Positions 502 through 31,600 of a stretch of 35,687 bases of DNA are shown piece after piece. The DNA lies in NCBI GenBank assembly GCA_031288305.1, contig JAITRP010000117.1, positions 1-35,687 of the forward strand, in the 5' to 3' direction. The stretch is from Zoogloeaceae bacterium (lineage in GTDB: Bacteria; Pseudomonadota; Gammaproteobacteria; Burkholderiales; Rhodocyclaceae). Position 1 is the first letter of the stretch. Each line of letters begins with the position of its first letter. The notes beneath the pieces were generated by a model. It searched no databases and was not told the origin of the DNA. It was given only the letters and a program-made list of their open reading frames with translations. Made by a program: the position numbers and the translations under genes.

Positions 502-637
502 AGCAAGAAATTAGCGGCAGACCTTCAGGTCTGCCGGTCTAACGTCATTGGGAAGGGGTTTGCATCCCCTCCCCAATGGCTACGGTCGAAACCCCGGCCT
601 TCAGGGCGGGGTTTCAAACCAGAGTTAGTTTTACGAT
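502..637 (+). repeat. Multi-hairpin palindromic element (family 2), copy A
   Basis: AGCAAGAAATTAGCGGCAGACC-TTCA-GGTCTGCCG...CATTGGGAAGGGG...CCCCTCCCCAATG...CCCCGGCCTTCAGGGCGGGG...GTTAGTTTTACGAT; near-identical to 29796-29932 and to the reverse complement of 28698-28866. Confidence 0.9.
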
Positions 638-12472: not shown

Positions 12473-12493
12473 GAAATTTGCCTTTTTTGGTGA

Positions 12494-12845
12494 GCGGCAA
12501 AAAGTAAAAACCCACTTTTTGCCGGTTTGTCTTGGGTTTGAAACCAGGCAAATCCTGGCTTCAAACCGTATAAAAAAACCAACGTGAAACCCATCCGGCC
12601 TGGCGGCCAGTCACGTTGAATCGACGCAATTTTGGCGTGACTGCCTGCCGGAAGCCCCCTGTCCCTTCCCCTTTGTGGGAGAGGATGGCGCAAAGCGCCG
12701 GGAGGGAGCGGCTCAAAAGAGCAAAGCCGCTGAACTGTGGCTTCCCCTGACCCCTCCCCCGCAAGGAGGAAGGGGGACAAAAGCGTTTGCCCTGTCTTCA
12801 GGCATTTTGAATTTCATACGGTTCATTCAGCATGACGGACTACCA
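12494..12845. repeat. Composite family 1 element with 'GTCACGTTGAATCGACGC' module
   Basis: GCGGCAAAAAGTAAAAACCCACTTTTTGCCGG hairpin, GGTTTGAAACCAGGCAAATCCTGGCTTCAAACC palindrome, then a block at 12610-12845 closely matching 28488-28895. Confidence 0.8.
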
Positions 12846-12960
12846 GAGTTTCGTTGCTTGCCTCACAAAACTGGATGAAGGTCGCCATGATAAGCTATCC
12901 GCGAATCTCTGCCCCTGTCCTGTCACCTGATCTATACTTTCCTCCTTCTGTCCGGAGTTT

Positions 12961-17432: not shown

Positions 17433-17433
17433 A

Positions 17434-17668
17434 AACGTCAAAACCTACTTTTTGCCCGGTTCAGTCAGCAAAAAAGGACAGGCAAAGCCTGCCTTTTCTG
17501 GGGTAAAGGCAACGCAACCCACTACCACCTGCACGGTACTGTAGGGGCGCACTGCGCGCGCCCGTCAGCCGTCACGCGGCGGATGATTTGCGGGCGCAGA
17601 GCGCTCCTATAACCACCATAAGGCCGAAAGCCGCGCAAAAAAAGCGGAGGGTTGCTTTTTGCCGCTTC
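17434..17668. repeat. Two-ended family 1 element
   Basis: Left AACGTCAAAACCTACTTTTTGCCCGGTT right after the coaX stop; right GCGCAAAAAAAGCGGAGGGTTGCTTTTTGCCGC; internal palindromes GGACAGGCAAAGCCTGCC, GTAAAGGCAACGCAACCCACTACC, TAGGGGCGCACTGCGCGCGCCC. Confidence 0.8.
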
Positions 17669-20829: not shown

Positions 20830-21043
20830 GTCCGGTCATAGGGGCGCACTGTGCACGCCCCTATGACCGGACGGACGGGTAGTGGGTTACGTTGTCTTTA
20901 TTCCAAAAAAGGCAGGCTTTGCCTGTCTTTTTTGGAATATGAAACCGGCACAAGGCCGAAGGCTGGTCTGGCGAAGCCAAATGCGGCTTTGCTCTTGCAG
21001 GTTGCAAAGCCGCGCAAAAAGTAGGTTTTCATTTTTTGACGTC
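20830..21043. repeat. Family 1 mosaic repeat with boundary hairpin at right end
   Basis: GGTCATAGGGGCGCACTGTGCACGCCCCTATGACC palindrome, TAGTGGGTTACGTTGTCTTTATTCCAAAAAAGGCAGGCTTTGCCTGTCTTTTTTGGAAT, GGCTGGTCTGGCGAAGCC, then GCGCAAAAAGTAGGTTTTCATTTTTTGACGTC; abuts ccmB 3' end. Confidence 0.8.
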
Positions 21044-23461: not shown

Positions 23462-24319
23462 GTGTCTGCTCTGGTTTCCCCGCGTTTCGATTTGCATGTG
23501 CATTCCACGGCTTCGGATGGGCTGTTCACGCCGGAGGCGGTGGCGGCACGCGCGAAAGCGCGGGGGCTGGATGGGTTGGCATTGACCGATCACGACAGCG
23601 TGGCGGGGCTTGCCGCGGCGCGGCGGCAGGCGGCGGCGGAAGACCTGGTCTTCATCAATGGCGTGGAAATTTCCGTCGAATGGCAAGATACGCCCATACA
23701 CATCGTCGGGCTGGGCTTCGATGCGGCGCATCCGGGTCTGCTGGCGGGCTTGAAGACGACGCAGGATGGACGGCTGGAGCGGGCGCGACGCATGGACGCG
23801 GCATTGGCGGCGGCGGGCATTGCCGGTACGCTTGCCGGCGCGCTGCGGCACACGGCGCATCCGGCGCAGATTTCGCGCGCCCATTTTGCCCGCCATCTGG
23901 TGGAAATCGGCCTCTTTGCCGATACGGGCAAAGTATTCGAACAGTACCTGACGCCGGGAAAACCTGGCTACGTGCCGCATCGCTGGGCGACGCTCGCCGA
24001 GGCCGTCGGCTGGATACGCGCGGCAGGCGGCGTGGCGGTGGTGGCGCATCCGGGACGCTACGAAATCTCCAGCGGGCAGATGCGCGTGTTCCTGGGCGAG
24101 TTTCGCGATCTGGGCGGCGAGGCAATCGAAGTTTCCTCCGGCAGTCATGTGCCGGCGCATATGCGCCGTTTCGCGCGGCTGGCGCGATCATTCGGTTTTC
24201 ACGCCTCGCAGGGTTCGGACTTTCATGGCGGCGCCGGAGCGGATCTGGGCGGATTCGCGCCGCTGCCGGAAGACTTGCCGCCCGTCTGGCGCTTATTGAA
24301 TGGGGACGTCAAAAAGTGA
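23462..24319 (+). CDS. PHP-domain phosphoesterase (RNase AM / TrpH-like)
   Basis: GTG start; FDLHVHSTASDGLFTPEAVAARAKARGLDGLALTDHDSVAGL; VVAHPGRY; GSDFHG. C-terminal GDVKK* is encoded by repeat sequence. Confidence 0.92.
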   Translation: MSALVSPRFDLHVHSTASDGLFTPEAVAARAKARGLDGLALTDHDSVAGLAAARRQAAAEDLVFINGVEISVEWQDTPIHIVGLGFDAAHPGLLAGLKTTQDGRLERARRMDAALAAAGIAGTLAGALRHTAHPAQISRAHFARHLVEIGLFADTGKVFEQYLTPGKPGYVPHRWATLAEAVGWIRAAGGVAVVAHPGRYEISSGQMRVFLGEFRDLGGEAIEVSSGSHVPAHMRRFARLARSFGFHASQGSDFHGGAGADLGGFAPLPEDLPPVWRLLNGDVKK

Positions 24320-24570
24320 AAGGCTACTTTTTGCCGGTTCGGCCAGCAAAAAAGGGCAAGCAAAGCTCGCCCTTTTTTGGTGTAAAGGCAAGGCAACCCA
24401 CTGCCTGTCCGCGCGATCCTGGATCCTGTAGGGACGCGCTGCGTGCGCCCCTGCGACAACCGCACCGCCCGCGCTGGTTTTTCGTTGGTTTTGCACGGTT
24501 TGAAGCCAGGCTTTGCCCGGTTTCAAACCCCGAAATAAACCGGAAGTAGGTTTTCACTTTTTGACGTATA
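24304..24570. repeat. Best-preserved family 1 element with inverted terminal hairpins
   Basis: Left GACGTCAAAAAGTGAAAGGCTACTTTTTGCCGG; right CCGGAAGTAGGTTTTCACTTTTTGACGTA (near-perfect inverted copy); internal palindromic modules shared with 17434-17668 and 31320-31600. Confidence 0.9.
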
Positions 24571-28197: not shown

Positions 28198-29008
28198 ACG
28201 GCAAAAAGTTAAACCCTGCTTTTTATCGAGTAAGTCAGGCGCAATGAAAAACAGAGAATACTGTCAATAATCTATCCCCAACGAAGCGCGCCAAACTTCC
28301 TCCCTCCCCTGCTGGAACCGAAGGCGGAAGGACAGCCGCGGGCTGGTCTGGCGAAGCCAGATGCGGCAAAGCCGCGCACAAGGGGAGGGCAGGAGAGCAG
28401 GCGTCAGCGCTCCGATGCAAGCCGCCTCGCCGCAATCCCTCTTGTCAGGTGAGAAGAAAACCGCGCGCCTTTGCGCCCTAGTAGCCCGTCACGTTGAATC
28501 GACGCGATTTTGGCGTGACTGCCTGCCGGAAGCGCCCTGTCCCTCTCCCCCTTGTGAGGGAGGGCTTGCACCCTGCAAGGGGAGCGGCTCAAAAGAGCAA
28601 AGCCGTTGAACCGTGGCTTCCCCTCTCCCCTGACCCCTCCCCCGCAAGGAAGGAGGGGGAAAAAGCGTTTGCTCTGTCTTCAGGCACTTTGAGTTTCATC
28701 GTAAAACTAACTCCGGTTTGAAATCCCGCCCTTCAGGGCGGTGCGAAGGTCGAAACCCCGGCCTGAAGGCCGGGGGATCAATCCGTAGCCATTGGGGAGG
28801 GGAGAGAAACCCCTTCCCAATGGAGTTAAACCGGCAGCCCTGAAGGGCTGTCGCTAATTTCTTGCTAGGGTTCATTCAACATGACGAACTACTAGGATCG
28901 TGCGGATGGGTAGTGGGTTTTCTTGCATTTACTCCAAAAAAGGGCGAGCTACGCTTGCCATTTTTTGCTGACTGAACCGGCAAAAAGCGGGTTTTTACTT
29001 TTTGCCGC
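28198..29008. repeat. Large composite family 1 element with nested family 2 copy C
   Basis: Left TACGGCAAAAAGTTAAACCCTGCTTTTTATCGAG; right GGCAAAAAGCGGGTTTTTACTTTTTGCCGCC touching the queE stop (TAG at 29009-29011 on minus strand); internal block 28488-28895 matches 12610-12845. Confidence 0.8.
28698..28866 (-). repeat. Multi-hairpin palindromic element (family 2), copy C, longest form
   Basis: Reverse complement of copies A/B but with two separate terminal hairpins (CCGCCCTGAAGGGCGG and CCCCGGCCTTCAGGCCGGGG) instead of one fused hairpin. Confidence 0.9.
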
Positions 29009-29795: not shown

Positions 29796-29932
29796 AGCAA
29801 GAAATTAGCGGCAGACCTTCAGGGCTGCCGGTCTAACGTCATTGGGGAGGAGTTTCTCTCCTCTCCCCAATGGCTACGGATTGATCCCCCGGCCTTCAGG
29901 GCGGGGTTTCAAAACGGAGTTGGTTTTACGAT
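29796..29932 (+). repeat. Multi-hairpin palindromic element (family 2), copy B
   Basis: AGCAAGAAATTAGCGGCAGACCTTCAGGGCTGCCG...CATTGGGGAGGAG...CTCTCCCCAATG...CCCCCGGCCTTCAGGGCGGGGTTTC...TTTTACGAT. Confidence 0.9.
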
Positions 29933-31239: not shown

Positions 31240-31319
31240 GTCATTTCTCCTCGTTGGAACAGGTTGTCGAGAAAGGATAGCACTCTGGCGGATTTACGCT
31301 CGCTTTGCAAATTTGTTTA

Positions 31320-31600
31320 AGCGGGAAAAAGTGAAAACCCACTTTTTCCCGGGTTAATCAGGGTTTGAAGGCAAAGCAAAGTTTCGCCTTCAAACCGTGA
31401 AAAAGCAACGAAAAAACCAGCGCGATCCGCATGGTTCTCGTAGGGACGCACACGGCGCGCCCCTGCGACCGGTGTTCAGACCGGATGGGCGGCAGCAGTG
31501 GGTTTTCGTTGCCTTTCCCCCAAAAAAGGACGAGCTTTGCTTGCCCTTTTTTGCTGATCTGAACCGGCAAAAAGCAGGTTTTTGCTTTTTTGACGCCTAC
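31320..31600. repeat. Two-ended family 1 element between tolB and pal
   Basis: Left GGGAAAAAGTGAAAACCCACTTTTTCCC; right GGCAAAAAGCAGGTTTTTGCTTTTTTGACGCC overlapping the tolB stop; internal GGTTTGAAGGCAAAGC..CGCCTTCAAACC, TAGGGACGCACACGGCGCGCCCCT, CAGTGGGTTTTCGTTGCC, CCAAAAAAGGACGAGC..GCCCTTTTTT. Confidence 0.88.

Follow-up and report, generated by a model that had tools for sequence, protein, structure and literature searches.

Whether a short sequence that interrupts one of two similar blocks of a contig is a mobile element, and if so of which kind, where it inserts and what it does to the genes beside it, is the question raised by this locus. The window, i.e. the whole stretch of 35,687 nucleotides that was analysed, is contig C183 of a 2.72-Mb genome in 224 contigs (G000), whose closest named relatives by QueC are the Zoogloeaceae bacterium MAGs Nm470_bin6 (92%) and Pcl387_bin2 (85%); going by how these MAGs are named, the origin may be an insect gut. 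A first-pass annotation had paired the two blocks as a filled and an empty site and had offered them as a natural comparison for insertion or precise excision. The fixed TTCAT target, the position at start codons and the link to IS200/IS605 elements, all described below, are additions to that annotation.

A filled and an empty site

The features of the pair are:
28700..28866, minus strand: element copy C, 167 bp, reading AGCAAGAAATTAGCG...GGAGTTAGTTTTACG on the minus strand and CGTAAAAC...TTTCTTGCT on the plus strand (transposon reading)
28695..28699, plus strand: target TTCAT (ATGAA on the minus strand), with a single occurrence in filled site and empty copy alike
12813..12817, plus strand: the empty-site TTCAT, within the paralogous copy of the host repeat
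12596..12855, unstranded: host repeat, empty copy
28474..28895, unstranded: host repeat, filled copy, a block absent from sister species L068

The claimed homology of the two blocks holds: with the element removed, 28466-28900 and 12591-12860 share 219 identical columns out of 261, and the alignment score of 342 compares with a best score of 33 among 200 shuffles. Without 28700-28866 both blocks are 84% identical and the junction neither gains nor loses a base. The element had been placed at 28698-28866 with a length of 169 bp; its existence is borne out, its bounds and length are not, since the empty copy has the AT of 28698-28699 as well and these two bases form part of the target, which puts the proposed start two bases early. 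On the plus strand the filled junction reads TTTCAT/CGTAAAAC...TTTCTTGCT/AGGGTTCATTC, with AGGGTTC as right flank, and the empty junction TTTCAT/ACGGTTCATTC, the whole empty stretch being TTTCATACGGTTC. Non-homologous flanks, or a lack of clean junctions at other copies, had been named as what would speak against the pairing; the junction of copy C duplicates and loses nothing. The empty site at 12.8 kb is a paralogous repeat and not an allele, and further copies of the host repeat are likewise uninterrupted. Copy C does not front a gene: its surroundings are an intergenic repeat, and the frame opened by its ATG runs for 36 codons and shows no coding signal.

The host repeat is a separate intergenic repeat of ~230-300 bp that begins GTCACGTTGAATCGACGC and also occurs in L168, L181, L183, L184 and L185. 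Half-copies of it adjoin elements in L148 and L150, which suggests either that further elements inserted at this TTCAT or that elements recombined with each other. A further dispersed intergenic repeat family, of the CAAAAAGTGGGTTTTTAC / CCAAAAAAGGGCGAGC type, is also found in L068 and occupies 12477-12575, 17433-17563, 20878-20986, 24307-24530, 28894-29007 and 31304-31590 of the window.

Insertion or excision

Two more copies are present in the window:
29796..29930, plus strand: element copy B, 135-bp form; the orthologous L068 locus is empty, CAACCC/ATGAAACC
502..635, plus strand: element copy A in its 134-bp form; ATGAAATAG comes next, with no gene

The proposed search for more filled and empty pairs yielded copy B against L068 and the trkA copy against four congeners. 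Copy B is missing at the collinear locus of L068, a sister species ~90% identical, which reads CTTCAACCC/ATGAAACCAACG where the window reads CTTCAACCC/element/ATAAAAACCCAACG. The trkA locus carries a copy in G000 but none in G011, G013, G015 and G016, whose sequence continues unbroken over the site at 84-89% identity. A copy at rdgB is missing in G013, where the few bases preceding the ATG differ. Neither duplication nor loss of the target was seen at any filled/empty pair compared (copy C, copy B, trkA).

Excision of IS200/IS605 elements is precise, so any empty site might in principle be an excision product, and the pair could record a precise excision at the 12.8-kb copy with no insertion at 28.7 kb. 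We regard this as highly improbable; several other long host-repeat copies, within the 410 kb examined, are uninterrupted at the site, relatives have empty orthologous loci, and insertion is the more parsimonious reading. The comparison offered by the first-pass annotation is thus supported and now has a direction: judged from these sequence comparisons, the copy C pair is an insertion event, because other host-repeat copies are empty, L068 lacks copy B and four congeners lack the trkA copy.

Copies, forms and distribution

The end motif AGCAAGAAATTAGCG occurs 150 times in the 2.72 Mb with up to two mismatches allowed, and a control pattern, the motif reversed, occurs 0 times forward and once in reverse in the same genome. 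The element was detected in 16 of the 21 genomes searched within the genus and in 0 of 20 from other genera. The 46 full copies of G000 have a mean pairwise identity of 91%, reaching 98.8% in the best pairs, and a form of 134-135 bp (copies A and B of the window) lacks one internal hairpin. Some 20 fetched G000 contigs stop inside an element copy (e.g. L113, L114, L120, L122, L128, L130), so the repeat fragments this assembly. Matches to the left end only were considered as a candidate autonomous parent and rejected, all being truncated or diverged copies. At L051:17-64 and G000:C169:160-207 (L162) a solo 48-nt hairpin is found in which the AGCAAGAAATTAGCG end is mirrored, AGCAAG...TTGCT; possibly it is a minimal derivative of the element.

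Target site

Target statistics are based on the 57 copies with a readable right flank. In the orientation ending ...GGAGTTAGTTTTACG, this flank is ATGAA in 44 of 57 and ATGA in 49 of 57, while A at position 4 is invariant (57/57). On the other strand the element thus lies 3' of TTCAT, usually with G next; a preferred base after the target is also described for IS608 and ISDra2 (PMC5934647, PMC7290912). The opposite (left) flank has no fixed sequence, its first base being C in 31/57 copies (p = 0.03 against the non-coding background). Insertion is therefore 3' of a fixed pentanucleotide, exact in 44/57, that is retained in empty sites. The open literature yielded no IS200-type elements that target TTCAT or start codons.

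Hairpins and folding

Four local hairpins and a proposed guide were located in copy C:
28720..28723, plus strand: proposed left-end guide GAAA, from the family consensus compared with IS605 left ends
28726..28741, plus strand: left-end hairpin CCGCCC-TTCA-GGGCGG, with a core common to IS605 of the genus
28756..28775, unstranded: internal GC-rich hairpin CCCCGGCC-TGAA-GGCCGGGG, absent in the 134/135-bp copies
28789..28823, unstranded: internal long hairpin, minus strand CCATTGGGAAGGGG...CCCCTCCCCAATGG, in which species differ by compensatory changes
28832..28853, plus strand: right-end hairpin CGGCAGCCC-TGAA-GGGCTGTCG, with compensatory changes across species

A structural alignment of 20 sequences from eleven genomes shows changes on both sides in 11 of 35 pairs, whereas none of 500 shuffles scored as high and slid controls gave 1-3. 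Helices 1, 2 and 3 provide the compensatory support; in helix 4, the one closest to the start codon, changes affect a single side, e.g. G-C to G-U. Both ends carry subterminal hairpins, helices 1 and 4 being formed in 97-98% of the alignment cells. Both strands fold much better than their shuffles, with a z of -5.2 as RNA and -5.9 as DNA. The two ends form an imperfect inverted repeat, in which the outer helix is standard in 94% of cells with many G-U pairs, and for copy C an end-to-end stem that buries GGAG is predicted. Such a terminal RNA stem was rejected as a family feature, as it lacks covariation.

The ability of the ends to pair, albeit imperfectly, is what a classical MITE, mobilised by a DDE transposon through its terminal inverted repeats, would display. 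That origin has very little probability left, being largely refuted by the absence of target duplication at every filled/empty pair, and the fixed target on one side only and the terminal helix devoid of compensatory change also argue against it.

Start codons and displaced leaders

Genes were predicted over 410 kb of the genome with a simple home-made caller. Exactly at the ATG of an open reading frame with coding composition lie 22 of the 57 copies. Family models match element-fronted genes from residue 1 (TrkA, DinD, DadA) or from near residue 1 (UbiE, RdgB, NusB and the uroporphyrinogen-III methyltransferase CobA), with further matches to LolA-like and CHASE2 cyclase models. TTCAT being the complement of ATGAA, many insertions come to lie exactly between a leader and the ATG. 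Of the ATGAA copies 20/44 (45%) are at start codons, which is close to the 70/190 (37%) of non-coding ATGAA sites in general (p = 0.27); against ATGA sites there is a significant excess (p = 0.006), which arises from the fifth target base. These figures lend no support to a preference for start codons over and above that for the target, and the target sequence together with avoidance of coding DNA explains the share.

The element end contains GGAG, 11 nt before the ATG, which is kept in 18/22 copies at starts and 25/35 others, a difference that is not significant by count. At trkA the native leader lies 166 bp from the ATG; given this distance, translation presumably has to use the element end (GGAG) or coupling. 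The copies do stand before start codons, and we infer that they functionally replace the leader. Scaling 22/57 to 150 copies, an extrapolation, would give ~50-60 genes with the element as leader.

A spreading regulatory leader, riboswitch- or thermometer-like and selected before a set of genes, would account for the strongly conserved fold, for end pairing that could bury GGAG and for 22 copies exactly at start codons. It would leave the remainder unexplained: the start-codon share equals that of non-coding ATGAA sites, 35/57 copies have no recognised gene there, the fronted genes are functionally unrelated, GGAG is not significantly better kept at starts and an Rfam search matched the element to no family. 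On balance a regulatory origin appears improbable.

Relation to IS200/IS605 elements

IS608 and ISDra2 insert 3' of a tetra- or pentanucleotide and cause no target duplication (PMC5934647, PMC7290912). The genus does contain Y1 transposase genes, and in G015 an open 148-codon tnpA frame adjoins tnpB. In a group of IS605 left ends of the genus the hairpin CCCCGCCCTTCAGGGCGGGG follows CAAG in 11/12 cases and CAAA in one, and TTGAC precedes 8/12 of these ends. The left end of our element has the same hairpin core, CCCCGCCCTTCAGGGCGG, preceded by GAAA, after TTCAT. In the IS608 structure A16 of the guide pairs with T-3 and A17 with T-4, A18 being the next guide base (PMC5934647); in that register guide base 1 would read -3, base 2 would read -4 and base 4 would read -1. 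Both CAAG/TTGAC and GAAA/TTCAT obey it, although these are two pairs compared post hoc, and the two differing guide bases face the two differing target bases. GAAA/TTCAT versus CAAG/TTGAC thus likely represents a natural guide switch within the genus. Guide and target do not covary within the family, and altered guides were rejected as the cause of copies at other targets, 7/8 of which carry the same guide.

The left hairpin is the only part shared with the ends of a Y1 element that could act in trans. The right end is unlike that of IS605 (GAAT...TCAA), and a guide complementary to its own cleavage site was not found there: the cut falls after TTGCT, with no matching tetranucleotide before the hairpin. 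The element is therefore classed as working like IS200/IS605, and as a PATE by anatomy only. A search of G000 for an intact Y1 tnpA gave fragments only, and G005, with ~100 candidate copies, gave no Y1 match. The expected bias of orientation with replication, towards the lagging strand, was not seen by GC skew, which is weak on these short contigs.

Two loci bring element and IS605 side by side. In L059 (G015:C5, ~1915-2080) the element lies between divergent IS605 tnpA and tnpB, directly before the tnpB ATG, so that this IS605 is itself a victim of the element; the matching IS605 of L051 lacks it. In L044 / L236 (G000:C178:16093) an IS605-type left end and tnpB start directly follow the GTTTTAC that ends an element copy, and replace the ATGA flank.

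Discussion

Precise insertion, the TTCAT target, the family, hairpins with compensatory changes and a left hairpin core shared with IS605 are all observed. We consider it probable that the element is a transposase-less PATE of the IS200/IS605 (HUH-Y1) type, 134-167 bp long, that inserts 3' of TTCAT and is mobilised in trans by a Y1 enzyme. Such a transposase, supplied in trans, would excise and insert the element as single-stranded DNA; the left guide GAAA would read TTCAT by base pairing, and the helper may be TnpA of the genus IS605 type (CAAG/TTGAC). Insertion would move the native leader ~167 bp away, with the GGAG end of the element standing in.

PATEs of Haloquadratum walsbyi (PMC3119063) have a similar non-coding length, palindromes near the ends, no target duplication, related IS605-type ends, a high copy number and an equally elusive intact helper. 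Ours differs in forming one homogeneous genus-restricted family, in a target complementary to ATGAA, in a right end unlike the local IS605 and in ends that are an imperfect inverted repeat. With IS608 (TTAC) and ISDra2 (TTGAT) it shares insertion 3' of the target, subterminal hairpins and a guide at the hairpin foot (PMC5934647, PMC7290912), but it has no tnpA/tnpB, has a new target and departs from the right-guide rule. With IS605 of the genus (e.g. L059, L232) it shares the left hairpin core, whereas guide CAAG, target TTGAC, tnpA/tnpB and another right end set these apart.

REPINs and RAYTs (PMC6006769) are another case of intergenic hairpin repeats that reach high copy number and depend on a link to Y1 enzymes, and the element might be REPIN-like, i.e. 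two inverted palindromic units moved by a RAYT (REP-associated Y1 transposase). Copy number, intergenic location, lack of target duplication, inverted hairpins (each end has GCCCTTCAGGGC, but on opposite strands), and RAYT-like Y1 genes in G018 and G014 would fit. The hairpins nevertheless have no GTAG/GTGG foot in the family consensus, full element copies do not border the RAYT-like loci (in incomplete assemblies), G000 yielded no RAYT-like gene, and a fixed pentanucleotide target suits IS200/IS605 better; we hold a REPIN-like nature to be unlikely, if less so than a regulatory leader.

Under the preferred IS200/IS605-type reading, re-programming of guides, so far achieved by engineering (PMC5934647 and work cited there), here looks natural, as the genus has two guides whose differences are matched by those of their two targets. 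As the target overlaps the start codon, a non-coding element displaces the leaders of core genes (trkA, ubiE, rdgB, nusB) and breaks no protein, a displacement repeated tens of times in one genome. More tentatively, a guide change may have shifted the target of an IS605-type element from TTGAC to TTCAT, and with an outward ribosome-binding site such an element could spread on start codons cheaply; several dozen unrelated genes would then gain a common structured 5' leader and may be co-regulated.
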